In this document: positions 4,642 through 18,572 of the stretch, one piece after another
How the letters are laid out: the number at the start of each line of letters is the position of its first letter
Position numbering within the stretch: the stretch's first letter is position 1
Assembly (NCBI GenBank): GCA_022690815.1
Contig: JALCZJ010000014.1
Coordinates: 1-59,241 of the forward strand
DNA: 59,241 nt
Origin: Ferrimicrobium sp.
GTDB lineage: Bacteria > Actinomycetota > Acidimicrobiia > Acidimicrobiales > Acidimicrobiaceae
Direction of reading: 5' to 3'
Notes under the pieces: generated by a model
What the model was told of the DNA's origin: nothing
Databases searched by the model: none
What the model saw: the letters and a program-made list of their open reading frames with translations, nothing else
Made by a program: the position numbers and the translations under genes

Positions 4642-5229
4642 TCATACCTGCGTTGTAGCGCTGCTCAAGAGACCGCCTGCATCGATGAGAACCAGGGCAT
4701 CGAGCATCTGATCGATGAAGTCACCCCCGTTCACCGACCACTGATCGAGCACCGTCTCGGTAACCATGAACAAAACATTAGCGATCAGCGACACCCGAGG
4801 ACTCTCAATACCGACCCCGAGCCGATCGGCTATGATCGGGCGAAGTCGAACCGCCGATTCCCAGCCGTCGACCAGCCAACGCGCCCGAAGCGACGGTGTC
4901 GTGGCGAGTAGCTGTAGAAGTTGGCGATCTTGTTCTACTTCAGTTTCACCCTGCACAGCGCGGAAAACAACCTGCACCGACTCGAGAAGACTTTCGCTCC
5001 GTGGGCGCATAGCCAGTGAGGCCAGCAGCTGGTCGATCTTGAGCCATAAAAAGCTCATGACCACCTCTTCCTTGGTGGCAAAGTAGCGAAAGAAGGTTCG
5101 TGGAGAGATGCCAGCTGCTTGGGCGATCTCCTCCACCGTCGTGTGATCGAAACCCTTGGCAACAAAGAGTTCCGCCGCTCTCTGGGCTAACAACGCACGC
5201 GTGCGTTCCTTACGCTCTTTGATCGTCAT
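4642..5229 (-). CDS. TetR-family transcriptional regulator
   Basis: 195 residues from the ATG at 5229 (198 from the GTG at 5238). Residues about 8-55 carry the TetR HTH: 'AAELFVAKGFDHTTVEEIAQAAGISPRTFFRYFATKEE' split over helices 1-4. The rest is a helical ligand domain without a recognisable subtype. A -10 box TAGAGT (5242-5237) lies 7 nt before the ATG, so a leaderless start is likely. Upstream (around 5247-5258) is a GGTACC-centred half palindrome that could be its operator. It is divergent from the small membrane protein gene at 5425, the obvious candidate target. Ligand unknown. Confidence 0.88.
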   Translation of the reverse strand: MTIKERKERTRALLAQRAAELFVAKGFDHTTVEEIAQAAGISPRTFFRYFATKEEVVMSFLWLKIDQLLASLAMRPRSESLLESVQVVFRAVQGETEVEQDRQLLQLLATTPSLRARWLVDGWESAVRLRPIIADRLGVGIESPRVSLIANVLFMVTETVLDQWSVNGGDFIDQMLDALVLIDAGGLLSSATTQV

Positions 5230-5424
5230 CAACGGCACTCTATCGCTGTTGGTACCGCTGTCGGGCCGAACCGTGATGCGAACCTCCCCGGCGAGCTATC
5301 GCCACAGGAGCACTCGTTCAGGTTGCCTGGGTCCCTGGGTTAGTGCAACAAGCCACAGCAAAGCCAATGACGGCGTGCTGGTGCTGGACGCACAACGGTG
5401 TCATCCCGCTAGGCTTGCCCAGGT

Positions 5425-5955
5425 ATGGCCGCCCCACTATCAAAGCGTGAACGTCAGTTTGGCTTCGGCATCGTCGCAGCGACAGCCGTAGCCTACATCG
5501 CCATCTGGACACCGGTGATCATCGGCAAAGTCAAGCCGGCCAAGAACGCATCGTTTCTAGATAACCCAGCCGTTGCCATCACCGAGGGTCTCCTGCTCAT
5601 GGCGATTACCGCGGTGATGATCTATCGCAACCAACGTCGCTTCGCCGGTGTTGGTGCCATTATCGTGGCGCTCGGCGCTGGTTGGGGCAGCTTGGTGCTG
5701 TTGGCCTTCCCTCTTATGGCTTGGGGCGTCTACGCTGGCTTTAAGGTCGACAAAGCTCAGGTCGAGGCACGTCGCCTCGCCCGTCAGGCCAAAAAGGCTG
5801 GGCTTGCACCTCCTGGCAGCTCCGGTGGTGTCGCCAATGGATCGAGCATCGTGAACGCCAGCCAACGGCCACGGCCCACGGCCTCCAAGCGGTATACGCC
5901 ACCAAAACCACCGTCCAAACGCGAGGCGCGACGTAGGCGCAACAGCCGCCCCTAG
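5425..5955 (+). CDS. Small membrane protein with basic C-terminal tail, function unknown
   Basis: 176 residues. Three or four hydrophobic segments (about 15-33, 48-65, 75-90 and 90-107) are followed by a long charged tail rich in Arg, Lys, Pro and Ala, ending in an Arg cluster, predicted to be cytoplasmic. No family was recognised. A -10 box TAGGCT (5410-5415) ends 9 nt upstream of the ATG and there is no clear ribosome binding site, so the transcript is probably nearly leaderless. The gene is divergent from the TetR gene and precedes the lipid-type operon by 40 nt. A separate promoter-like box lies between them, so it may not belong to that operon. Confidence 0.72.
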   Translation: MAAPLSKRERQFGFGIVAATAVAYIAIWTPVIIGKVKPAKNASFLDNPAVAITEGLLLMAITAVMIYRNQRRFAGVGAIIVALGAGWGSLVLLAFPLMAWGVYAGFKVDKAQVEARRLARQAKKAGLAPPGSSGGVANGSSIVNASQRPRPTASKRYTPPKPPSKREARRRRNSRP

Positions 5956-5978: not shown

Positions 5979-6014
5979 ATGACGGGAATACTTCGGTGCT
6001 CGATTCTGCGCTAA
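5979..6014 (+). CDS. Possible 11-codon leader ORF overlapping the reductase start
   Basis: An ATG at 5979, ten bases after a TAAACT -10-like box (5963-5968), opens an 11-codon frame (M-T-G-I-L-R-C-S-I-L-R) that stops at 6014, 16 nt inside the acyl-CoA reductase gene, in another frame. If transcription starts near 5976, this would be a near-leaderless upstream ORF, and ribosomes translating it would cover the GTG start of the main gene. It contains one cysteine codon. Inference only. Confidence 0.25.
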   Translation: MTGILRCSILR

Positions 6015-8320
6015 GCGGCAAAACGCTCTTTATAACCGGTGCGACCGGATTTTTGGGGACGGCTCTCGTCGAGACGGTGCTGCGTGCCCTGCCAGAGACC
6101 AACCTGGTGCTCCTGATTCGCCCCGGGCGCAACATCAGCGCTGAGGCGCGTGCTGACAAGGATCTCTTTCGCAATAACTGCTTCGACCGGCTTCGCACGA
6201 CGCTTGGCGCCGATGGCTTTCGCGACGTCGTCGCCACCCGTGTGCGGATCGCCGCTGGCGATGTTGGAACCGATGGCCTCGGCCTTGATGCCGAGGGGCA
6301 ACGGCTCTTGAGTGAGGCCGATGTCGTCATCCATTCGGCCGCCACCGTCAGCTTTGACGCCATGTTCGACCAGGCGGTCGAGATCAACTTGCTCGGACCC
6401 ACCAGAGTCATGCATGCCTACCAAAGGGCCCGCAGTGGTCGTGAGGATCCAGGTCACTTCGTCTCTGTCTCCACCGCTTACGTCGCTGGATCACGCAAGG
6501 GCGATGCGCCCGAGCTCTCCCTCAACGACCAGCCTCACTACCCAGAGATCCCTTGGCGCCACGAGGTCGATGCGGCACGCGCCCAACGCATCTCCACCGA
6601 GGCCTCGAGCCGAGAACCAGACACGCTGGCCGAGCTGCGCGAGGCAGCAATCGCCGAACTCGGCGCCGCCGGTGTCGCCCTGCTCTCGGAGAAGATCGAG
6701 CGACTCCGGGCAGACTGGGTGAAAGACGAGATGGTCGCCAAGGGCCGCGCACGGGCACAGAGCCTAGGTTGGCCCGACGCCTATGCCATGACTAAGGCGC
6801 TTGGTGAGCGGCTCTTGGAGGCTGAACGTGCTAACGTGCCGCTCTCGATCGTGCGACCCTCCATCATTGAATCAGCGCTTCGCGACCCCTACCCCGGTTG
6901 GATCCGTGGTTTTAGGATGGCGGAGCCGATCATCATCTCCTTTGCCCGAGGTCTCTTGAAGGACTTCCCTGGCGTGCCCGAGGGCGTCGTCGACGTCATC
7001 CCGGTCGATCTGGTCGTTGGAGCGATTTTGGCTGCCGCGGCGCATCCCCCGGCAACCACGAGGTTCTACCATTCGGCATCTGGGTCACAGAATCCGCTCA
7101 AGTATCGCCAGCTCGTCTCGCTCATCCGGCGTTACTTTGGTGCCAACCCGCTCTATGACGACATCGGTCAAGCCATCGCGATCCCCGAATGGACCTACCC
7201 CGCCAGGGGCCAGGTCGAATCGACCCTCCGACGATCCAAGCGCATCGTCGATACCTCGACCAAGATCATCTCCAAGCTGCCACTGAGGGCAAACTTCACC
7301 GAGTACCAGGACCGCCTAGCCGAAACACAGCAGGGCCTCGAGCGCGCTGGGTCCTACGTCGAACTCTACGGTGCCTATGCCGAATGCGAAGCGATCTATC
7401 TGGCCGACAACTTAATGGAGCTCGCTGCCACCCTGGATGACACCGACCGAGCGACCATCGCAATCGATCCCCATCTCATCGATTGGGAGTCCTTTGTCCT
7501 TGAGACCCACCTCCCCTCGGTGGTCGAACATGCTCGTGCGCGAACTCGGCCAAAGAGCAGCGCGCCCAAGCGCGTCTCCCGCGAAGATCGACTGCGTTCC
7601 TCCCTCCTCACCGGCCACCGCTTGGCAGCCTTTGACCTTGAAAACACCATTCTGGCCGCCAACGTAGTCGACTCCTTCGCCTGGCTAGCCACCGCCAGTG
7701 TCGAGGGTAGTCATAAGCTCGCCATCGCCGCCTCTCTGTTGGCGGAGGGACCAAAGCTCCTCGCGCTCGATGGCCGAGACCGCTCAGACTTCCTGCGCTA
7801 CTTCTACCGACGCTATCGCGGCGCTGAGCTCGCCGAGCTTGAGCGACGCGCACCTGAATTCCTGACCGGCTACCTCCTACGCAAGTCCTTCCCGCTTGGG
7901 CTCGCTCGGGTCCGAGCGCATCGCAGGGCGGGTCACTATACCGTATGCATCACCGGCGCACTCTCCTTTGCCGTCGCACCCATGGCACCACTCTTTGATG
8001 AGATGCTGGCACTCAACATGGCCACCGATGCCGATGGGTACCTCACCGGTGACGTACCCGGTGCCCTGCCGATCGGCGAGGCGCGTGGAGACCTCCTGCG
8101 TAAAGTGGCCACCAACCATGGGTACAAGATCGAAGAGACCGTGGCCTATGCCGACTCCGCCAGCGATCTCCCGATGCTCGAGGCCGCCGGCACTGCCGTC
8201 GCTGTGAACCCGGATTCCAAGCTGCGCCAACTTGCAAGGCGTCGCGGGTGGCTCATCGAAGAATGGTCCCGTGCCCAGGGCTTTGGCAATATCTTTCTCC
8301 CGATCGGACGGTCACTTTGA
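5996..8320 (+). CDS. Fatty acyl-CoA reductase (extended SDR) fused to HAD-IB phosphatase
   Basis: 774 residues in two parts. Residues 8-360 form an extended-SDR, male-sterility-type acyl-CoA reductase: nucleotide motif GATGFLG at 15-21, a catalytic tyrosine/lysine pair Y263-x3-K267, and 'RPSII' at 287-291. Family members reduce long-chain acyl-CoA to fatty aldehyde or alcohol with NADPH. Residues 540-770 form a phosphoserine-phosphatase-like HAD-IB domain. Its nucleophile is D547 in 'FDLENT' (Glu replaces the usual second Asp), with motif II T653, motif III lysine near 703, and acidic motif IV D720/D724. A helical linker (about 365-535) joins them. The start is the GTG at 5996, since no better start lies upstream. 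First gene of a four-gene overlapping operon; its TGA overlaps the next TTG start. Confidence 0.9.
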   Translation: MLDSALSGKTLFITGATGFLGTALVETVLRALPETNLVLLIRPGRNISAEARADKDLFRNNCFDRLRTTLGADGFRDVVATRVRIAAGDVGTDGLGLDAEGQRLLSEADVVIHSAATVSFDAMFDQAVEINLLGPTRVMHAYQRARSGREDPGHFVSVSTAYVAGSRKGDAPELSLNDQPHYPEIPWRHEVDAARAQRISTEASSREPDTLAELREAAIAELGAAGVALLSEKIERLRADWVKDEMVAKGRARAQSLGWPDAYAMTKALGERLLEAERANVPLSIVRPSIIESALRDPYPGWIRGFRMAEPIIISFARGLLKDFPGVPEGVVDVIPVDLVVGAILAAAAHPPATTRFYHSASGSQNPLKYRQLVSLIRRYFGANPLYDDIGQAIAIPEWTYPARGQVESTLRRSKRIVDTSTKIISKLPLRANFTEYQDRLAETQQGLERAGSYVELYGAYAECEAIYLADNLMELAATLDDTDRATIAIDPHLIDWESFVLETHLPSVVEHARARTRPKSSAPKRVSREDRLRSSLLTGHRLAAFDLENTILAANVVDSFAWLATASVEGSHKLAIAASLLAEGPKLLALDGRDRSDFLRYFYRRYRGAELAELERRAPEFLTGYLLRKSFPLGLARVRAHRRAGHYTVCITGALSFAVAPMAPLFDEMLALNMATDADGYLTGDVPGALPIGEARGDLLRKVATNHGYKIEETVAYADSASDLPMLEAAGTAVAVNPDSKLRQLARRRGWLIEEWSRAQGFGNIFLPIGRSL

Positions 8321-9537
8321 AAGCGCTCGTGATCAGTCGTTCACCGGCTCGGTTCCTCACGGCCCGCGTACTCAAAGATCGACTCACCGACAAGGCGATC
8401 GAGTCGGGACCACTCGCACTCAAAGACGTTGACGTACCACGACTGCCTTCGTCTGACTGGGTACGGGTGCGTCCACTGCTCTCAGGTATCTGCGGCTCCG
8501 ACCTCGCCACCGTGTTCTTCCAATCCTCGCGCTACTTCGAGGCGCTGACCTCGCTTCCTTTCACCCCTGGGCACGAGATCGTCGGCGAGCGTGTCGATGA
8601 ACCGGGCAAACGCATCGTCATTGAACCGGCACTTACCTGCGCCATCCGTGGCCTCGCCCCCTGTGAGTTCTGCGCCAGTGGACAGACCCAACGCTGTGAG
8701 TCCACCACCATCGGTGACCTTAAAGAGGGAATCCAACTCGGCTACTGTGCTTCGACCGGTGGCGGATGGTCGAACGAATTCATCGCCCATGAACGCGCAA
8801 TTCACTCGGTGCCCGACGCACTCAGCCTTGAAGACGCGGTCATGATCGAACCTTTGGCCTGTGCCATCCACGTCAGCCTTCGACCAACCGTGCGTCGCGG
8901 ACATCTCGCCATCATTGGAGCCGGCACCGTCGGACTGGCGAGCCTCGCAGCCTCTGGCCTCCTCGGCGAGTACGACTCGATCACAGTGGTCGCCAAGCAC
9001 CCGCTCCAGCGCCAACTGGCCAAGGAGCTTGGGGCCCACCAGGTGCTCTATAGCGACGAACTGCTCAGCGCAGCTCGTCGCCTGCATGCGAGCCAGCGCG
9101 TTGGCCGCTATCTCAGCAACGGCTTCGATATCGTCATCGATGCGGTTGGGTCGACGACGAGCATCGAGTCCGCCATCGAGTCGGTTCGCCCTGGTGGCGA
9201 GGTGATCATCGCCGGCATGCCTCCACGCCAGCCCCTCGATCTTGCACCCCTGTGGCATCGCGAGGTCACCATCAAGGGCGCCTATGCCTATGGAACCGAA
9301 GAGCTTGATCCTGGGACCGCGAGCCGTCTCGGCCTCGCTGCTACCGATACGCACCCACGCACTTTTGCGCTCGCCATCCACGTCGCCGAGCAGTTGCGTC
9401 TCGGACGCCTCGTCACCCACCACTACCGGCTCAACGAATACGTCCCTGCACTTCGTAAGGCCTATCACGGTGGTCGCGAGGACGCCATTAAAGTTGTCTT
9501 CGATCTCACAAAAAGAAAGTCGGTACACGATGCCTAG
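8317..9537 (+). CDS. Zinc-dependent alcohol dehydrogenase (MDR superfamily)
   Basis: 406 residues from a TTG start whose bases overlap the TGA of the reductase gene (TTGA), chosen because the family-like sequence begins there ('LKALVISRSPAR'). Medium-chain dehydrogenase features: 'GICGSDLA' (catalytic zinc cysteine), 'PGHEIVGE' (zinc histidine and glutamate), four cysteines around 'PCEFCASGQTQRC' for the structural zinc, and a Rossmann motif 'GAGTVGL'. It would interconvert an alcohol and an aldehyde or ketone with NAD(P). In this operon the natural guess is a long-chain or glycerol-derived substrate, but nothing in the sequence fixes it. The stop TAG overlaps the next gene's ATG by 8 nt. Confidence 0.9.
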   Translation: MKALVISRSPARFLTARVLKDRLTDKAIESGPLALKDVDVPRLPSSDWVRVRPLLSGICGSDLATVFFQSSRYFEALTSLPFTPGHEIVGERVDEPGKRIVIEPALTCAIRGLAPCEFCASGQTQRCESTTIGDLKEGIQLGYCASTGGGWSNEFIAHERAIHSVPDALSLEDAVMIEPLACAIHVSLRPTVRRGHLAIIGAGTVGLASLAASGLLGEYDSITVVAKHPLQRQLAKELGAHQVLYSDELLSAARRLHASQRVGRYLSNGFDIVIDAVGSTTSIESAIESVRPGGEVIIAGMPPRQPLDLAPLWHREVTIKGAYAYGTEELDPGTASRLGLAATDTHPRTFALAIHVAEQLRLGRLVTHHYRLNEYVPALRKAYHGGREDAIKVVFDLTKRKSVHDA

Positions 9538-11116
9538 ACCCGGATTTGTTCTCGAGGTTGACCGCGCGACCCCACCGACGCTCTTCTGGCACGGGGAGTC
9601 CTTCCGTCTAGAGCGTCTACCGCGAGGCTCGCGGATCCTCTACCCGCCGGAGCCTCTCAATCCCATCACCGATGTCCGAGCCGCCATCAACCAAGCGCTG
9701 GAGCACCCCGTTGGGGACGCCCAGCCGCTCTCGAGCCTGTTGAACCCCAACATGAAGCTCACGATCGCCTTCGATGATGTCTCCCTTCCGCTGCCGCAGA
9801 TGACGGCACCCGATATTCGCTCACTGGTGATCGAAGCGGTACTTGAACGTGCCGCCGAGGCCGGAGTGACCGATGTCGTGTTGATTGCAGCCCTTGCCCT
9901 CCATCGGCGTATGACTGAGAACGAGCTACGCCATGCCCTCGGCAACCGGGTCTATAACGCGATGGCTCCCCGGGGCCAACTCACCCAACACGACGCCGAG
10001 GACAAGGCCAATATGACCGTCGTCGGGGAGACCGACCGGGGAGAGCTGGTAGAGCTCAACCGTCGTGCGGTCGAGAGCGACCTACTCGTCTACGTCAACA
10101 TCAACCTCGTCTCCATGGACGGGGGACACAAATCCGTCGCTACCGGACTTGCCGGCTACGACTCGATCAAGTTTCACCACAACGTCAACACGATGGTGCA
10201 TTCGCGGTCGTTCATGGATCGACACAACTCCGAGCTCCACTCGTCGAACTGGCGCATGGGACATGTGATCAAAGATGCAGGAGTCAAGATCTTTCAGATC
10301 GAGACGACTCTCAACACCGCGACCTTCCCGGAGAGCTTTCGCTTCCTGTCCAAGCGCGAGTGGGAGTGGAACCTGCGTGACCGGGGCAGCTTTATCGCTG
10401 CCAGCGAGGCGCTCAAAAAGACCCCTCCGCACCTCGCTCGCCAGATCTTTCAATCGGTACGATCCCCCTATGGCGTCACCGGCATCACCGCTGGTGAGGT
10501 CGAGGCGGTCCATGAGATCACTTTGGACCGTGTCTACCAACAGCAACTGGTGCGGGTTGATGGCCAATCCGACATCTTGACCCTTGGACTCCCCTTCATC
10601 GGCCCCTACAACGTCAACTCGATTATGAATCCGATCCTTGTCTATTGCCTCGGCCTTGGCTACTTCTTCAACATGTACCGCAACAAGCCTTTGGTGCGCA
10701 AGGGTGGTGTCGTCATTTTGTCTCATCCGAATCGCCCGGAGTTCGACCCAGCATTTCATCCAAGCTATGTCGACTTCTTTGAACAGGTCCTCACCGAGAC
10801 CACCGATCCGCTGGTGATCGAATCCAAGTACGAAGAGTCCTTCGCGCGCGATCCCTGGTACATCCACCTCTATCGGACCGGCAACGCCTACCATGGGGTG
10901 CATCCGTTCTACATGTGGTATTGGGGGGCCCATGCCCTCGACCATCTTGGTGGCGTGATCGTCCTCGGTGGTGACCCAAAGACGACCCGCCGCCTCGGCT
11001 TCCAAGCAGCCTCGACGATGGCCGACGCCCTTGAGATGGCGCGCTCCATCGTTGGTCAAGACCCGAGCATCATGCACCTGCACTCCCCTCCCTTGGTGAT
11101 GGCTGATGTCTACTAA
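9530..11116 (+). CDS. LarA-like protein (lactate racemase N-terminal/DUF2088 family), divergent
   Basis: 528 residues. The family uses a covalently bound nickel-pincer nucleotide for racemising or epimerising 2-hydroxy acids. Recognisable parts: 'FDDVSLPLP' at 81-89 (the place of the DDxTRP motif), 'LHRRMTENELRHALG' at 124-138 with H125, and 'DGGHKSVATGLAGY' with K201 (expected cofactor lysine) followed by H216/H217. Two features differ from the classical lactate racemase as I recall it: Leu stands where the substrate-binding Arg of DDxxR is expected, and no His is found about ten residues before the lysine. It is also about 100 residues longer than LarA. It probably acts on another substrate or has lost activity. 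It overlaps the genes on both sides (8 and 11 nt). Confidence 0.82.
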   Translation: MPRPGFVLEVDRATPPTLFWHGESFRLERLPRGSRILYPPEPLNPITDVRAAINQALEHPVGDAQPLSSLLNPNMKLTIAFDDVSLPLPQMTAPDIRSLVIEAVLERAAEAGVTDVVLIAALALHRRMTENELRHALGNRVYNAMAPRGQLTQHDAEDKANMTVVGETDRGELVELNRRAVESDLLVYVNINLVSMDGGHKSVATGLAGYDSIKFHHNVNTMVHSRSFMDRHNSELHSSNWRMGHVIKDAGVKIFQIETTLNTATFPESFRFLSKREWEWNLRDRGSFIAASEALKKTPPHLARQIFQSVRSPYGVTGITAGEVEAVHEITLDRVYQQQLVRVDGQSDILTLGLPFIGPYNVNSIMNPILVYCLGLGYFFNMYRNKPLVRKGGVVILSHPNRPEFDPAFHPSYVDFFEQVLTETTDPLVIESKYEESFARDPWYIHLYRTGNAYHGVHPFYMWYWGAHALDHLGGVIVLGGDPKTTRRLGFQAASTMADALEMARSIVGQDPSIMHLHSPPLVMADVY

Positions 11117-12011
11117 GCCCTCGATGAGCTCGCTGCTCGGCTTCATCCTTCGTCGGCCAACCCCGCCGCAATCGATGATTCCACCGCGAAGCCATGCCAC
11201 CGGCACCAACTATGACACCAGCTTTTCGCGCAAGGAGCCGGTTCGAAAGGTCCGCGCGCTGTTGCTCGACGCTGGCATCACACCCTTGACCCGTGCGATC
11301 ACGAAGCCAACCACCATCAACGCCTCGGCACTTGATGGCTTAGAACGTCCGCTTATCTTCGTGGCCAACCACCAGAGTCACCTGGACACGCCGCTCGTCC
11401 TGGCGGTTTTGCCACCCCAGCTGCGCCACCACACGGTGGTCGGAGCCGGTGCAGACTTCTTCTTTGACCGCAGGACCAAGGGCTTCTTCTCCTCGACGCT
11501 GCTCGGCGCTATCCCTATCGACCGCGTTCGCCCCTCGAGAGCCTCAGCGGAGCTGGCGATCCAGCTCCTTGAGGAGGGTTGGAACCTCGTGCTGTTTCCC
11601 GAAGGGGGTCGAACGCCGGATGGTCTCACCCAAGAACTGAAGTCTGGTGCCGCACAGATCGCCATCAAGGTCAGCCGCCCGGTGGTGCCTCTCTTTATCG
11701 ACGGCACTTACGAGATCTACGGCAAGACCAACGATCGGATCCATCCCGGCTCCACCACCGTCGTCATCGGCGAACCGCTCTTTCCCCGCGGCGGTGAAAA
11801 GGTCGCCGAGCTGAACGAACGTATCACCCACGCCCTCGGAGTCCTTGGGCGAGAGGCGGCAACCGACTTCTTTACCGCCAGACAACCCGAGCGTGCGCTC
11901 CCGTTCCCTGCCCCATCGCGAAGTTGGGTCGAGGCGTGGCGATCAAGTGACCATCGCCACCATCCCGACAGTGAGCGCAAGTGGCCAAAGATGTTTGGTT
12001 CCCGCAACTAA
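11106..12011 (+). CDS. 1-acyl-sn-glycerol-3-phosphate acyltransferase-like protein (PlsC family)
   Basis: 301 residues. The two acyltransferase signatures are clear: the HX4D box H89-Q-S-H-L-D94 in 'VANHQSHLD', and 'FPEGGRTPDG' (motif III) about 75 residues later, followed by 'PVVPLFIDGTYEIY' (motif IV). Family members move an acyl chain from acyl-CoA or acyl-ACP to (lyso)phosphatidic acid or a related acceptor at the membrane. The N-terminal 80 residues are unlike plain PlsC and may set specificity. The ATG overlaps the stop of the LarA-like gene by 11 nt. Together with the upstream fatty acyl reductase it points to a lipid product. Confidence 0.9.
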   Translation: MSTKPSMSSLLGFILRRPTPPQSMIPPRSHATGTNYDTSFSRKEPVRKVRALLLDAGITPLTRAITKPTTINASALDGLERPLIFVANHQSHLDTPLVLAVLPPQLRHHTVVGAGADFFFDRRTKGFFSSTLLGAIPIDRVRPSRASAELAIQLLEEGWNLVLFPEGGRTPDGLTQELKSGAAQIAIKVSRPVVPLFIDGTYEIYGKTNDRIHPGSTTVVIGEPLFPRGGEKVAELNERITHALGVLGREAATDFFTARQPERALPFPAPSRSWVEAWRSSDHRHHPDSERKWPKMFGSRN

Positions 12012-12366: not shown

Positions 12367-13122
12367 CTACGTCGACTCCATCAACCGCAACCCGGTTGGA
12401 GCAATTGAGTCAAACGACGGTGCGAGCTCGATCTCAAACACGGCCATCGAGGCGGGGAACAGTGAGCGAGAGAAAAGAACCGGATGATCACCCTCATCAA
12501 AGGTAATACGCTCACACATCAGGCCAGGAGCACCGGCCACCACATTGAGCAGTTGAGCGTCGGCATCAGAGATGCTCGCGCCAGCAATCGTCTGCACCGC
12601 GCGCTTCAACGGACGCCGGAGCAATCTCGATGAGCTCAACAACTCATAGAAGGAGCGATGCTCAAGGTCCTTGATCGAGAGGCCTCGGCCGAGGTAGGAC
12701 GGAATCCAAACCGTCACCTTGGCAAACGGCGTCCCATCAGCTAGATTGACCCGCGTCACCTCGAGTAGCTCACCACCACCGAGCACTTCTTCCAAACGCC
12801 CGGTGGCCTCGATCACCCTCGAGGCGATAATACGCCGCCGAGGGACAACGCCGATCTCCTCGAGCTGTTGTTCGATGGTCGAGAATTCACCGAGCACCTG
12901 CCGCAACGGAGCTCGGGTGACGACCCAACCCCTGCCCTGCTGTGACTCGACAAGGCCCTCGCCACGCAGGATCTCAAGCGCCTTACGGACGGTAATACGC
13001 GACACGCCAAACCGTGAACCGAGATCGGCTTCGGACGGGAGTAAGTCGCCGTGACGAAAATCATTGGCAGCAATCTCAGCCCTAATTTCGTCAGCAACGC
13101 TTACGTATCGAGGTACACGCAC
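12367..13122 (-). CDS. GntR-family regulator, HutC subfamily (UTRA ligand domain)
   Basis: 251 residues from a GTG start. Residues 1-70 are the GntR winged helix ('LPSEADLGSRFGVSRITVRKALEILRGEGLV' split over helices 2-3 and the wing). Residues about 85-240 form a UTRA domain, which binds small effectors and controls DNA release. A palindrome-like box ATACTTGTAT lies immediately upstream (13130-13139), overlapping the probable -10 TAGAAT (13143-13138). Matching boxes sit in the aconitase promoter 560 bp away, so the protein probably represses both itself and aconitase. No SD sequence is evident, so the mRNA leader is very short. Effector unknown; a citrate-cycle acid is a reasonable guess. Confidence 0.9.
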   Translation of the reverse strand: MRVPRYVSVADEIRAEIAANDFRHGDLLPSEADLGSRFGVSRITVRKALEILRGEGLVESQQGRGWVVTRAPLRQVLGEFSTIEQQLEEIGVVPRRRIIASRVIEATGRLEEVLGGGELLEVTRVNLADGTPFAKVTVWIPSYLGRGLSIKDLEHRSFYELLSSSRLLRRPLKRAVQTIAGASISDADAQLLNVVAGAPGLMCERITFDEGDHPVLFSRSLFPASMAVFEIELAPSFDSIAPTGLRLMEST

Positions 13123-13129
13123 ATGTCTT

Positions 13130-13139
13130 ATACTTGTAT
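13130..13139 (-). promoter_or_regulatory. Operator-like box ATACTTGTAT at the gntR promoter
   Basis: ATAC-TT-GTAT is an inverted repeat with a two-base centre. The surrounding 15 bp (13126-13140) match the aconitase promoter at 13693-13707 in 14 of 15 positions. It overlaps the presumed -10 of gntR, which would fit autorepression. Confidence 0.65.
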
Positions 13140-13143
13140 TCTA

Positions 13144-13683
13144 TCACACAATCAGTGGCGGCCAAATCACAGGATCGGACGCTGGCCCTGAATGCTGGCC
13201 CCAAAATACTGGAAAAGTTCGCTGATACAACGCCGAGGTGGACCGCCTCGGTCAGCACCTAACTAACCTCGGGCAACCGAATGCCCCGACGATCAAAGAC
13301 CACGAACCGAGGGGCATGCGGGCACGGCCCCCACCCGCACGGCTAGGCAATGCGCGATCTGCGTTACTCCATGCGTCACGCTTAGGTTTGGCCACTCAAA
13401 GCACCGATGACTTGTCTATGGACGAAAGCCCCAAGCGGCAGCGACGGATCGCAGCAGTGGTCGAGGAGTTCGAGCGTGACATCAACGCGCTCCTGATCAC
13501 TTCGCGGAATCAGTGGGCGACAGAGCCTCGACAGCACCCTGAATGAATCGTCAGACGCAACTACCAGGTTGAAGCGCCAGCTTGACCGACGAGCGCACCC
13601 ACCGACTCGCTCCATGGGTTCGATTGCCCGGCTCGCAAATAAGGGACGAGTCCAACCCAACACGCTAAAACAATGCACCGGCG
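13144..13683. other. Long gap between gntR and acn, no supported gene
   Basis: A plus-strand frame (13238-13546) ends in a charged stretch that could be a decayed gene, but it has no ribosome binding site and no recognisable family. An overlapping minus-strand frame is no better. Confidence 0.35.
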
Positions 13684-13732
13684 TTGCACCTGTCTTAAAC
13701 TTGTATTATACTTGTGGGTACCGACGAAAGGA
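13684..13732 (+). promoter_or_regulatory. acn promoter and ribosome binding site
   Basis: TTGCAC (13684-13689) and TATACT (13707-13712) are separated by 17 bp, close to the sigma-70 optimum. AAAGGA (13727-13732) lies 5 nt before the ATG at 13738. Confidence 0.8.
13697..13717 (+). promoter_or_regulatory. Tandem operator-like boxes in the acn promoter
   Basis: AAACTTGTAT (13697-13706) and ATACTTGTGG (13708-13717) resemble the gntR box and are spaced exactly 11 bp apart, about one helical turn. They cover the spacer and the -10 element, where a bound repressor would block RNA polymerase. Confidence 0.6.
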
Positions 13733-13737
13733 TAACG

Positions 13738-15999
13738 ATGACAACCGTGGACGCATCAACCCCCGTAGCCAGCGTAAACAAGCTCTACGAGCGATTCCAA
13801 GAGACGAGCGAGATCGGCCGTCAACGACTTGGGCGCGGGCTTACCTTCGCAGAAAAAGTGCTCTTTGCCCACTTCCTTCACCCCGAAGGCACAGAGCTCG
13901 AGCGGGGACAAAGCTATGTCGAGCTCATGCCAGATCGCGTCGCCATGCAGGATGCGACCGCCCAAATGGCCCTCTTGCAGTTCATGACAGCCGGGTTACC
14001 ACAGGTAGCGGTGCCCGCAACCGTCCACTGCGATCACCTCATCCAAGCACAATTTGGAGCGACCACCGACCTTGAGACCGCCGAGGTGACGAACAAGGAG
14101 GTCTACGACTTTCTGCGCTCCGTCTCAGCCAAATATGGTCTCGGCTTCTGGGAGCCAGGCTCAGGCATCATCCACCAGGTCGTCCTCGAGCAGTACGCCT
14201 TCCCAGGTGCGATGATGATCGGGACCGACTCGCATACCCCGAACGCTGGTGGACTCTCCATGGTGGCGATCGGTGTCGGCGGCGCCGATGCGGTCGACGT
14301 CATGGTGGGGATGCCTTTTAATGTCCGCCTGCCAAAGCTCATCGGCGTGCATCTGAAAGGGGCACCAACCGGTTGGACCGCAGCCAAGGACGTCATCCTC
14401 CGCGTCGCCGAGATTCTCACCGTCAAAGGAGGCACCGGTGCGATTCTGGAGTACTTCGGCGAGGGAGCGCGCGCCCTGTCGACCACCGGCAAAGCCACCA
14501 TCTGCAACATGGGCGCCGAGATCGGTGCTACTTGTTCGCTCTTCCCTGCCGACGAGAACTCGGTCGCCTATTTGCGCTCGACCGGACGCGATGCAATCGC
14601 CGACCTCGTGGCCTCGCACCTGGCAGATCTCACCGATGATCCAGAGGTGGAGCAAAACCCGAAGTTGTACTTCGACCAGGTGATCGAAATCGACCTGAGC
14701 ACCCTCGAGCCCCAAATCGTAGGACCAGGGACGCCAGACCTCGGCCGTGGCGTCAGCGAGATCGGTGCCGAGGCTACCGAGAAGGGGTGGCCAACGGAGC
14801 TTTCGTACACCTTGGTTGGCTCGTGCACCAACTCTTCCTATGAGGACATCGCCCGTGCAGCGTCGATTGCACGTTGGGCAAATGAGCGAGGTCTCAAAGT
14901 CAAGAGTCCACTCTTAGTCACCCCTGGCTCAGAACGCGTGCGCGCCACCATTGAGCGCGACGGACTCCTCGATGACTTGCGTGCCATCGGGGCGACTGAG
15001 CTCGCCAACGCCTGCGGTCCTTGCATCGGACAATGGAAGCGCACCGACAAAGCTGCAGAGGGAGTCAACTCGATCCTCACCTCGTATAACCGCAACTTTC
15101 CCAAGCGTAATGACGGGAGCGCCGACACCCTGGCCTTTATTGCATCACCTGAGATCGTTGTCGCCTACGCGCTGGTCGGCCACTTCAACTTCAACCCCCT
15201 CACCGATGACATCGAAGGAGAACGTCTTCCGCAACCAACCGGCGAACGACTCCCGGCGCAAGGGTTTGCCAGTGAACAATCAGGCTTTCGGGCACCGCCA
15301 AGTGATAGCTCAACCGTCGTGGTCAAGGTGGACCCATCCTCTGAGCGGCTCCAACTCTTGGAACCCTTTAGCCCCTGGGATGGGAAGGATCTCCTCGGAC
15401 TCCCCGTGCTCATGAAGGCGGTTGGCAAGTGCACCACCGACCACATCTCCGCCGCTGGACCCTGGCTTCGCTATCGAGGCCACCTGGACAACATCTCCAA
15501 CAACCTTTTCCTTGGCGTGAACAACGCCTTCGGATCGGTCGCCGGCAAGGGCTGGTGCAAGATCCATGAGACTGAAGAGTCGCTACCGGAGATCGCCCGC
15601 CATTACAAAGCTGCAGGCATCGCCTGGGTAGCGATTGGCGACGAGAACTATGGCGAGGGATCGTCCCGTGAACACGCGGCGATGGAGCCAAGGTTCCTTG
15701 GTGCTCGCGCGATCATCGCCCGCTCCTTCGCTCGCATCGCAGAGACCAACCTGAAGAAGCAGGGAATCTTGCCACTGACGTTTGCGGATCCAGCCACGTA
15801 TGAGCTCATCGAACGCGATGACGCGATCGACATCGTCGATCTTGCCAATCTCGCGCCCGACACTCCTGTCCATGGCAAGATCCATCATGCCAACAGAGAG
15901 ACGGTGGACTTCGTAATGAACCACACCCTCTCACCCACCCACATCGAATGGTTCCATGCTGGGAGTGCGCTTAACATCATTCGTGAGCGTGCTCGCTAG
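13738..15999 (+). CDS. acn: Aconitate hydratase, mitochondrial-type
   Basis: 753 residues from the ATG at 13738 (a GTG 24 bases upstream lies within the promoter and is rejected). It isomerises citrate and isocitrate in the citrate cycle. Length and sequence match the mitochondrial-type aconitase rather than the roughly 900-residue AcnA. 4Fe-4S ligands are the cysteine in 'GSCTNSSYED' and the C-x2-C of 'ACGPCIGQW'. Other landmarks are 'GTDSHTPNAGGL' in the substrate-binding region, and 'YGEGSSREHAAMEPR' in the C-terminal swivel domain. Promoter, ribosome binding site and two GntR-type boxes are visible upstream, and a strong hairpin follows 42 bp after the stop. It is monocistronic. Confidence 0.97.
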   Translation: MTTVDASTPVASVNKLYERFQETSEIGRQRLGRGLTFAEKVLFAHFLHPEGTELERGQSYVELMPDRVAMQDATAQMALLQFMTAGLPQVAVPATVHCDHLIQAQFGATTDLETAEVTNKEVYDFLRSVSAKYGLGFWEPGSGIIHQVVLEQYAFPGAMMIGTDSHTPNAGGLSMVAIGVGGADAVDVMVGMPFNVRLPKLIGVHLKGAPTGWTAAKDVILRVAEILTVKGGTGAILEYFGEGARALSTTGKATICNMGAEIGATCSLFPADENSVAYLRSTGRDAIADLVASHLADLTDDPEVEQNPKLYFDQVIEIDLSTLEPQIVGPGTPDLGRGVSEIGAEATEKGWPTELSYTLVGSCTNSSYEDIARAASIARWANERGLKVKSPLLVTPGSERVRATIERDGLLDDLRAIGATELANACGPCIGQWKRTDKAAEGVNSILTSYNRNFPKRNDGSADTLAFIASPEIVVAYALVGHFNFNPLTDDIEGERLPQPTGERLPAQGFASEQSGFRAPPSDSSTVVVKVDPSSERLQLLEPFSPWDGKDLLGLPVLMKAVGKCTTDHISAAGPWLRYRGHLDNISNNLFLGVNNAFGSVAGKGWCKIHETEESLPEIARHYKAAGIAWVAIGDENYGEGSSREHAAMEPRFLGARAIIARSFARIAETNLKKQGILPLTFADPATYELIERDDAIDIVDLANLAPDTPVHGKIHHANRETVDFVMNHTLSPTHIEWFHAGSALNIIRERAR

Positions 16000-16530: not shown

Positions 16531-17247
16531 TCACCGATGTCTCGGCGTCCAGAGACTAGCGATTTGGTCCTGACACCGTTCATGGTGGAGCTTCCAATGC
16601 GGCGCCGACGGCTCAACCGCGATCCCCACCCGAGCCAGGAGCAGTTGCGCTAACCCAGGGTTTCGAGCCAAGACCGGACCATGCATGTACGTGCCGATGA
16701 TCGAAGCGTGGATCACGCCGTCGTAGCCATCGTCACCGTTCCCGTTGCCATGCCGCACCCTGGCCAGGGGTTGGGCACCGTCATCGAGAATGGTCATGCC
16801 GCCATGGTTCTCAAAACCCGTCATCAACGCCTGCGAGATCCCGATCAACGGCTCGGACAACACCTCTCCCACCATCCGCTTTGGGGCTGGAACACTCTCG
16901 ATTGGGAGTAGCCCAAGCCCAGCGAGAGTCTTGCCTTCGGCGACGAAGCTGCGACCCAGGAGCTGGTAGCCAGCACAGACCGCTAGAATCGAACCCCCGC
17001 GCTCAACCACGTGGTGCAGCGGTGAGCCCTCTCTCAGGCGTCGAGCCGCCAGCGACTGGGGGCCATCCTCACCCCCGCCAAGTAAGTACACATCACCATC
17101 GAGCGGTACTGCCTCGTTGACTGAGACCGTGACCACCTCCGGCGTCTCCCCACTCCGACGAACGAGATGGGCCAGGATGCGGGCGTTTCCATGGTCGCCG
17201 TAGGTGCCAAGCACCTCGGGGAAGATGGAGACGATTTTTACACTCAC
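16531..17247 (-). CDS. gatD: Lipid II isoglutaminyl synthase, glutaminase subunit GatD
   Basis: 238 residues. A class-I glutamine amidotransferase of the CobB/CobQ-like type. It releases ammonia from glutamine, and its partner MurT uses the ammonia to amidate D-glutamate in lipid II, giving D-isoglutamine. The catalytic cysteine is in 'AVCAGYQLLG' and the histidine in 'GTYMHGPVLARNP'. 'SIFPEVLGTYGDHGNA' near the N-terminus is typical of GatD. The GTG start overlaps the murT stop (GTGA), giving coupled translation of the two subunits. Confidence 0.95.
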   Translation of the reverse strand: MSVKIVSIFPEVLGTYGDHGNARILAHLVRRSGETPEVVTVSVNEAVPLDGDVYLLGGGEDGPQSLAARRLREGSPLHHVVERGGSILAVCAGYQLLGRSFVAEGKTLAGLGLLPIESVPAPKRMVGEVLSEPLIGISQALMTGFENHGGMTILDDGAQPLARVRHGNGNGDDGYDGVIHASIIGTYMHGPVLARNPGLAQLLLARVGIAVEPSAPHWKLHHERCQDQIASLWTPRHR

Positions 17248-18572
17248 GATACCACCCCGGCACCGACTCCCTGGATCGCCCCTAGCTTCTCCAAATCGCT
17301 CACCAACGCGCGAAACGCGGTGTAGTTGCCAAGATAGAGGATGCGATTGCCACCCACCGAACCCGTCGGGTCCACCGATCCCTGGCGGCGCGCAGCCAAT
17401 CGAAGGGCCTCAACCTGAGACGATACGACGGTGACGTCAAAGCCCGCCACCTCAAGGCGCAAGGCAAGATCGGTTGCTCGCTCCCCCGTTGCAATGACCC
17501 GTGCCGAAGACCGCGAGCCATACAGTGTTTCAAAGTCGACATCCCAGATCCAGGAGGTGTCGCACCCGTCCGCTACACGGGCATTGAGCCCAAGCACAAG
17601 CTCACCCTCCAGGGCACCGATGAGACTGAGATTGGCGTGCCAACCCGCAGGGTTCTTAGCGAGATAGGTGACAAGCGATGGCGTCGTTGCCAACTTCGTC
17701 AACCACCAGGTCCCAAAGCGCCCATCAACACCGGTGGATACCGACACACGTCCAATGAGCTCCCCAAGCGGTTTGCCGGTCGCCTCACCAACAGCGACGG
17801 CCGCCATCAGAGCATTCAAGAGGTTGAACCCCCCAGGCAAGCCTGGGTCAAGAACGCCAAGCGAGATCCCTCGCGCCCTCACGCGCCTCTGTTCGTCTAC
17901 CTCGTAGTCCGCCTGTGGCTCCGAGAGGCCACAGGCCTCACAACTCCATTGGCTCTCATACGTCAGCTCGCCCGTACATCGCGGGCACGATTGGGCATCC
18001 TGGTGCCAGCCCTCAGGGCCTTTGACCCAGATAGAACGCCGAAAGAGATTCGCATTCGCGACGATCAACGGGTCGCTAGCGTTGGCCACCACCGTCTCGA
18101 TCACCGCAGCCGACTCGGCGATCCTCGCCGCTAATCGACGCACCTCGAGGTTACGATCCAGTTGATCCCGTGACATATTCAACCAGACAAGGACGGCCGG
18201 CGCAAGACTTGTCGCCACCGATGGCACGTACGCTTCGTCAACTTCAAACACAGCACCGGTCGCATGCCCATTACCCTTGGCCAACACCGTAGCCACACCC
18301 CACGGAAGGTTCGATCCGCGATTAGCCAGTGCCTTAGGACCCAACAGCGCCCGAACGAAGGCGGTCGTCGTCGTCTTACCGTTGGTGCCGGTTACTACGA
18401 TGGATCGTGTTGCAAGACCCTTGGCGTGCCGATGGGAGAGAAAGTCAGGGTCGATCGCCAGAGCGATACGCCCGGGAAGGGTCTGCCCTTGAAAACCCGG
18501 CACGAACCTCGCAGCCAAAGCACTCACGAGTGCCGCGCGGCGCGCCAAATCTGTCCGGAGAGAAGGGTTCAT
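17244..18572 (-). CDS. murT: Lipid II isoglutaminyl synthase, Mur-ligase subunit MurT
   Basis: 442 residues. An ATP-dependent Mur-ligase homologue that activates the D-Glu carboxylate of lipid II for amidation with ammonia from GatD. It has the P-loop GTNGKTTT near residue 62, the central ligase domain with a four-cysteine zinc ribbon typical of MurT (CPRC ... CEAC, about residues 194-215), and the C-terminal DUF1727 region that contacts GatD. AAGGA precedes the ATG at 18572. It is the first gene of the murT-gatD pair. Amidation affects cell-wall cross-linking and lysozyme sensitivity. Confidence 0.95.
   Translation of the reverse strand: MNPSLRTDLARRAALVSALAARFVPGFQGQTLPGRIALAIDPDFLSHRHAKGLATRSIVVTGTNGKTTTTAFVRALLGPKALANRGSNLPWGVATVLAKGNGHATGAVFEVDEAYVPSVATSLAPAVLVWLNMSRDQLDRNLEVRRLAARIAESAAVIETVVANASDPLIVANANLFRRSIWVKGPEGWHQDAQSCPRCTGELTYESQWSCEACGLSEPQADYEVDEQRRVRARGISLGVLDPGLPGGFNLLNALMAAVAVGEATGKPLGELIGRVSVSTGVDGRFGTWWLTKLATTPSLVTYLAKNPAGWHANLSLIGALEGELVLGLNARVADGCDTSWIWDVDFETLYGSRSSARVIATGERATDLALRLEVAGFDVTVVSSQVEALRLAARRQGSVDPTGSVGGNRILYLGNYTAFRALVSDLEKLGAIQGVGAGVVS

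Follow-up and report, generated by a model that had tools for sequence, protein, structure and literature searches.

A widespread actinobacterial operon joining a fatty acyl-CoA reductase, a polyol dehydrogenase-type enzyme, a single-histidine LarA-like protein and PlsC: a possible route to ether lipids

Why should a protein of the LarA superfamily, whose members use a nickel-pincer nucleotide (NPN), be encoded among genes that point to lipid synthesis? The question is raised by a 59,241-nucleotide stretch of Ferrimicrobium sp. (assembly GCA_022690815.1, contig JALCZJ010000014.1, positions 1 to 59,241; hereafter the window), a member of the order Acidimicrobiales in the phylum Actinomycetota, where four overlapping genes occupy positions 5996-12011. 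An earlier note, made from the letters of the window, had described them as a four-gene overlapping operon with a lipid as its likeliest product. All four open reading frames, their families and their overlaps were found as it stated, and the lipid, although not proven, was borne out as a reading. The operon is a widespread uncharacterised module, present across many families of the phylum. We give an even chance to the reading that it makes the alkyl (ether) form of a glycerolipid building block, in which the LarA-like NPN enzyme and an alcohol dehydrogenase (ADH) would replace AGPS, the alkyl-dihydroxyacetone-phosphate (alkyl-DHAP) synthase, and its partner reductase.

The first gene (5996..8320, forward strand like the other three; GTG start, TGA stop) encodes a 774-residue fusion of a fatty acyl-CoA reductase (FAR) and a HAD-IB-type phosphatase. 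An NAD_binding_4 domain covers residues 13-344 (about 6032-7027; E = 6.9e-54) and the HAD domain residues 544-729 (about 7625-8182; E = 1.1e-21). The nearest solved structure for the FAR part is 7eoz, annotated "Fatty acyl-CoA reductase" (E = 1.3e-57, residues 6-171 and 243-514); since the match spans both the Rossmann part and the part behind it, the protein is by resemblance a full FAR and not a mere thioester-reductase domain. For the HAD part, the nearest solved structures are 3fvv and SerB. Residues Y263 and K267 of the reductase and D547, D720 and D724 of the HAD domain are invariant in the orthologs; in the window HAD motif I reads D-L-E-N-T, and the nucleophile is retained along with the two Asp residues of motif IV. 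The second gene (8317..9537; TTG start, TAG stop) encodes a 406-residue zinc-type ADH of the medium-chain dehydrogenase/reductase (MDR) superfamily, with ADH_N and ADH_zinc_N domains. It is of the ketose reductase / polyol dehydrogenase type, and a profile search at E 1e-30 lists the NADP(H)-dependent ketose reductase 1e3j and the xylitol dehydrogenase 7y9p. The third product (9530..11116; ATG start, TAA stop; 528 residues) is a LarA-superfamily protein of the LarAH14/15/16 family with a single catalytic His, matched by Lar_N (E = 2.2e-39) and by NF052592 (LarAH14/15/16; 875.9 bits, cut-off 740). The last (11106..12011; ATG start, TAA stop; 301 residues) is a PlsC-type acyltransferase (PF01553, E = 1.1e-20) with the HX4D motif in the form NHQSHLD and with FPEGGRTPDG; it is one of two PF01553 matches in its own genome, and hence not the sole acyltransferase there. 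Successive genes overlap by 4 nt (TTGA), 8 nt and 11 nt. A promoter and terminator scan returned no promoter-like and four terminator-like sites, not above shuffled sequences.

Do these genes belong together elsewhere? Among the named loci, taken as the best 80 of 570 and including Ferrithrix and Acidithrix, all four genes occur in 71, and in the remaining nine the missing gene falls at a contig or locus end. In a survey of the order, 56 of the 60 relatives carry the LarA family, 54 of them above the cut-off, the misses being G025, G036, G038 and G057. In a sample of 246 genomes of the phylum, with LarA counted over its cut-off and reductase-HAD at E 1e-60 or better, LarA occurs in 55 genomes, reductase-HAD in 58 and both in 54, leaving one genome with LarA only and four with the reductase only (Fisher p = 2.2e-48, a statistic that ignores relatedness). 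A lack of co-occurrence in other genomes, which the earlier note had named as a refutation, was not what the survey showed. Contig ends account for all five exceptions: in G250 a contig starts with a reductase fragment; G138 and G192 carry LarA pieces on the reductase contig (for G138 a contig end is the probable cause, its LarA being split over two contigs); and the contigs of G098 and G280 are short (5.1 and 4.7 kb) and stop at the ADH gene or just behind it. In families of mixed presence, such as f7 and f42, LarA and reductase-HAD are present or absent jointly, and in G120, where they lie on separate contigs, both are kept. Outside the order, PlsC-bearing families have all four genes in 14 of the 15 loci inspected, the fifteenth ending behind LarA. 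The same spread over many families of the phylum rules out an acidophile-specific trait, and the role in an acidophile membrane that had been suggested for the operon was not borne out.

The LarA-like protein is the unexpected member, and its conserved residues narrow what it may do. Its AlphaFold model (mean predicted local distance difference test score, pLDDT, 83.5) has the two-domain LarA fold: the nearest structure is 9q3k_A (Z 36.6, root-mean-square deviation (rmsd) 2.9, 454 residues aligned), and LarA itself, 5huq_A, aligns with Z 29.3 and rmsd 3.2 over 410 residues. The residue comparison covers 147 non-redundant orthologs of full length, of which 111 come from the order and 36 from elsewhere (the last-added loci are not among them), and residues were mapped by hand to published LarA numbering from printed alignments. 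H122, K198 and H214, which correspond to the first catalytic residue His108, the NPN-linking Lys184 and the Ni-ligand His200 of LarA, are present in 147 of 147. The position of Arg75, in contrast, is taken by Leu, Ile or Cys in all 144 orthologs with a letter there (three have gaps), within a loop (82-85) of low confidence in the model. At the site of the second His (His174) the loop is shortened, and position 189 is Asn (145 orthologs) or Ser (2). According to the LarA literature, Arg73 of the Isosphaera enzyme (LarA Arg75) binds both the NPN phosphate and the D-lactate carboxylate, the second His is missing from LarA groups 14 and 15, and LarAH14 from Frankia showed none of seven tested activities; the authors suggest another hydride-mediated reaction for single-His proteins. 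With the carboxylate-binding Arg and the second His both lost, these residues make a hydroxyacid racemase unlikely.

A second LarA subgroup, with about 420-540 bits to NF052592, was observed at six loci (L152-L157, in families f48, f61 and f58) and shares the Leu and single-His features. No FAR-HAD, ADH or PlsC of operon type adjoins it; the HAD part finds a weak match (109 bits) at a single one of these loci, on the opposite strand.

We read the product as a 1-O-alkyl ether lipid because of two further sets of loci, those of the Rubrobacteraceae and an AGPS locus in Streptomyces. In the Rubrobacteraceae (f44), reductase-HAD, ADH and LarA stand together in 17 of 20 loci inspected; as to the remainder, L145 was cut short by the stretch chosen, and G120 accounts for the other two, L178 and L179 being its two places. 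PlsY lies directly upstream, often overlapping, in 13 of the 16 loci that include the reductase start (ten counted by pattern and three, L147, L160 and L177, read from gene listings), as well as on the G280 contig, and its identity was checked with Pfam and NCBIfam at L173 and L144. The Rubrobacterales are reportedly rich in mixed ether/ester lipids, going by the title of a paper, which is also reported to propose that all five species have an operon making 1-O-alkyl glycerol phosphate. That operon may be the same as the one described here; the lipid assignment would then be less novel, though probably not the role of LarA.

The Streptomyces locus emerged when 72,556 plasmids were searched at the protein level for relatives of the reductase-HAD protein; the sole record at a coverage of at least 80% was the 2.35-Mb NZ_CP109481.1 of Streptomyces sp. 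NBC_01450 (36% identity, 98% coverage). The stretch is unannotated, and its genes were therefore called from open reading frames and codon composition. Divergent from the reductase-HAD gene, on the opposite strand, is a run encoding a short-chain dehydrogenase/reductase (SDR), PlsC and AGPS. The PlsC scores 196 bits against the operon PlsC profile, and the 566-residue protein whose gene overlaps it carries an SHHHGVG motif and finds 2uuu (E = 1.6e-114) and 4bby (E = 8.9e-85) as its best structures; by these similarities it is predicted to be a genuine alkyl-DHAP synthase. LarA gave no match at E 1e-5 on this plasmid (the rest of the genome was not searched), and the plasmid collection as a whole gave three distant LarA matches. 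According to a review (PMC9131029), the mammalian set for alkyl ether lipids consists of a reductase, AGPS, a keto-reductase and an acyltransferase.

Directly behind the plasmid reductase-HAD gene is one for a 264-residue protein (L255 14295-15089) that has no Pfam or NCBIfam match. Its Glu/His spacing, judged by eye, recalls ferritin-like di-iron proteins, and it might be an oxygen-dependent lipid-modifying enzyme.

In the pathway that we propose, FAR would reduce a fatty acyl-CoA to a fatty alcohol, and the LarA-like NPN enzyme, together with the ketose-reductase-like ADH, would put this alcohol onto a glycerol-phosphate backbone by hydride-mediated chemistry at C2, via a C2-keto stage, thereby doing the job performed elsewhere by AGPS and a short-chain reductase. 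The ADH, too, would work on C2 of the glycerol; PlsC would then acylate sn-2, and the HAD domain would remove a phosphate. Directly observed are the genes with their linkage and co-occurrence, the LarA fold, the residues kept and lost, the NPN biosynthesis genes of the genome and the Streptomyces locus with AGPS; the ether product, the order of the steps and the choice of ether-forming enzyme are what we infer. A more specific version, tentative and rather unlikely in our estimate, makes the LarA-like protein a hidden-redox alkyl-ether synthase that converts 1-acyl- to 1-O-alkyl-glycerol-3-phosphate in one active site. Here the hydride at C2 of 1-acyl-glycerol-3-phosphate would pass to NPN, a fatty alcohol would take the place of the acyl group next to the ketone so formed, and the hydride would be given back, with the single acid/base His serving the whole exchange.

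A number of observations weigh against the ether-lipid reading. In the window's own order the ether product is inferred from the genes, the lipid content of the Rubrobacterales is taken from one reported study, and the Streptomyces parallel is a single locus. The operon PlsC is absent from the Rubrobacteraceae loci; in G099 and G070 the two PF01553 proteins of each genome score 12-52 bits against the operon PlsC profile, to which the window PlsC scores 408 bits, and these two genomes are also without PlsY upstream. Three operons of the order lack the ADH (L033 in G052, L034 in G051 and L169 in G291), and in none of these genomes did LarC1 find a match, although the C-terminal half of PF01969 is present in G051; this suggests, from three cases only, that the ADH and the nickel cofactor go together. 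In all 87 sequences of the order, and in 9 of 28 outside it, Glu replaces the second Asp of HAD motif I, so that phosphatase activity in the window is uncertain. One ortholog from outside the order has a His at 190, beside the second-His site. Genes for the cofactor are also missed in places: LarC was not found in carriers G047, G052 and G054 (95-96% complete) and G291 (98%), in G128, G149 and G212 of the phylum sample, or in the less complete carriers G014, G020, G024, G027 and G035, and LarE is not over its cut-off in G052 and G054. Finally, markers of known routes were checked in 14 operon carriers (41 of 42 PF02913 places, a 21.9-bit fragment in G041 being left out). Wax ester synthase/diacylglycerol acyltransferase (WS/DGAT, PF03007) is present in nine of them, and proteins with the AGPS-type SHHHG motif occur alongside the operon in four (G186, G263, G271 and G284). 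The best structures for the G271 protein are AGPS, at E = 1.4e-55, far weaker than for the Streptomyces one; the gene in G186 lies between GlpD-like and glycerol-kinase (GlpK)-like genes (L259 5558-10617, neighbours named by eye), hinting at another role of this FAD-oxidase branch in glycerol metabolism.

The known ether routes were looked for in the window's own genome by the AGPS motif and by PF09989, and were not found. None of its three PF02913 proteins has the AGPS motif (they read GEHGIG, GEHGIG and AEHGIG), nor has any of the PF02913 matches of G012 (four) or G099 (three). PF09989, which we take to be the Ger/PlsA domain, was found in none of the 14 carriers, while the Thermotoga maritima control matches; three other controls that match PF09989 are not known as ether-lipid makers.

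The alternative that survives best, although we consider it unlikely, is that the operon yields a lipid free of ether bonds, be it a glycerolipid or some other kind such as a diol- or hydroxy-lipid. The LarA-like protein would then be a redox isomerase of a small polyol or sugar acid whose product supplies the acceptor or head group, and the alcohol made by FAR would go into an ester. The likeness of the ADH to ketose reductase and xylitol dehydrogenase fits this, as does the name that NCBIfam gives the LarA family, a hydroxyacid isomerase; in addition, a role in carbohydrate metabolism is suggested by Gatreddi 2025 for a subfamily of related single-His proteins. The presence of WS/DGAT in nine carriers also speaks for it, but this family is absent from the window's own genome and from G012, G099, G070 and G106, and in these five WS/DGAT wax esters are not the sink. 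As a general explanation, WS/DGAT wax ester synthesis is ruled out in these five PF03007-free carriers only. A small-molecule isomerase also sits poorly with the fixed linkage of LarA to FAR and PlsC, with the loss of the Arg that binds a carboxylate and with the Streptomyces counterpart, which carries AGPS.

We think it quite improbable that the ether bond is made by another step, either by FAR-HAD itself or by an unlinked enzyme, with LarA only setting the stereochemistry or redox state of glycerol C2; it might, for instance, convert one glycerol-phosphate enantiomer into the other, or DHAP-type intermediates into glycerol-3-phosphate-type ones and back. The ADH would suit the same C2 position; a two-base inversion at C2, however, is not expected in a protein without the second His, going by the literature, and Gatreddi 2025 allows a one-way racemase for single-His proteins.

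Can the protein be expected to hold the cofactor at all? A working LarA needs its maturation genes, and the search for larB and larE recommended in the earlier note succeeded: the window's own genome has a larB-larC pair and larE, all over their cut-offs (LarB 209, LarC1 114 and LarE 287.7 bits), and it contains a single PF09861 protein, the operon LarA. All three f42 carriers have larC some 1.5-1.7 kb past PlsC, on the same strand. LarC occurs in 51 of the 55 LarA carriers of the phylum sample versus 103 of the 191 other genomes (p = 2.7e-8), and, in the survey of the order, in 47 of 56 carriers. A protein that is structural, repurposed or independent of NPN, as the four good-quality carriers without LarC (two of them also without LarE over cut-off) and the inactivity of the Frankia LarAH14 might suggest, is very unlikely in view of the NPN-linking Lys and Ni-ligand His of every ortholog, the lar genes kept in a genome whose only LarA is that of the operon, and the larC near the operon in f42.

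A small putative membrane protein without a Pfam or NCBIfam match is encoded directly upstream (5425..5955, forward strand); it has a homolog at L040, and its cluster, seen only within the order, is present in 6 of 64 loci; it is probably outside the module. Further upstream and divergent is a TetR-family regulator (4642..5238, reverse strand; PF00440), which had no match at 1e-8 among 20 loci and is not a conserved neighbour; a cluster of TetR proteins, to which this one may or may not belong, accompanies the operon at 14 of 64 loci. Behind the operon (12367-15999) are a GntR regulator and aconitase; several other loci of the order also have homologs of the two close to the operon, a synteny with no obvious functional link, and beyond them is a MurT/GatD-like pair on the reverse strand (16531-18572; MurT_C, GATase_3).

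The formation of the glycerol ether bond in aerobic bacteria is largely open, and the operon ties this problem to the question of what single-His LarA proteins do, naming a substrate class for LarA homologs without the second His. It also allows potential ether-lipid producers in many families of the phylum to be picked out by their genes, a point of relevance to the use of lipid biomarkers. If the ether-lipid reading is true, a further route to glycerol ethers would exist besides AGPS and Ger/PlsA; the lipid role would be a new job for the nickel-pincer cofactor.

Ether-lipid operons are already known, and a nickel-pincer protein within one is the new part. We met no such protein in an ether-lipid operon in the literature searched, which lacks most subscription journals, nor any other link between LarA and ether lipids, in keeping with the novelty that the earlier note had assigned to this member. 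The resemblance it had seen to the myxobacterial ether-lipid set, elb, also stands, in that a FAR, an acyltransferase, a HAD protein and a dehydrogenase are all present in both. The elb genes of Myxococcus xanthus (ElbA-E) nevertheless differ in several respects: the ElbE dehydrogenase belongs to another superfamily than the MDR enzyme of the operon, ElbD has acyl-CoA synthetase (ACS) and acyl carrier protein (ACP) domains, whereas the four operon proteins contain no AMP-binding or ACP domain, and the FAR of the operon, unlike that of elb, is fused to HAD. ElbC is left without an assigned function in an ether-lipid review, and the myxobacterial steps are described as mostly uncharacterised (PMC9131029).

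Among NPN proteins, the closest comparison is with the single-His proteins 9q2u/9q3k and 9q3j, which have the same full-length fold, the NPN-binding Lys and His and one catalytic His. They share 24-26% identity with the operon LarA in structural alignment, and the latter differs in its hydrophobic residue where they have Lys and LarA has Arg, in its shortened second-His loop and in its lipid operon. The Ger/PlsA route of anaerobes would likewise yield 1-O-alkyl lipids, but by way of the PF09989 domain that all 14 carriers lack. The AGPS route, known from animals and represented by the Streptomyces locus, resembles the operon in the glycerol-phosphate context given by PlsY in the Rubrobacteraceae. 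The NBC_01450 locus and the window have FAR-HAD and PlsC in common, and where the former has AGPS and an SDR, the window has LarA and an MDR dehydrogenase.

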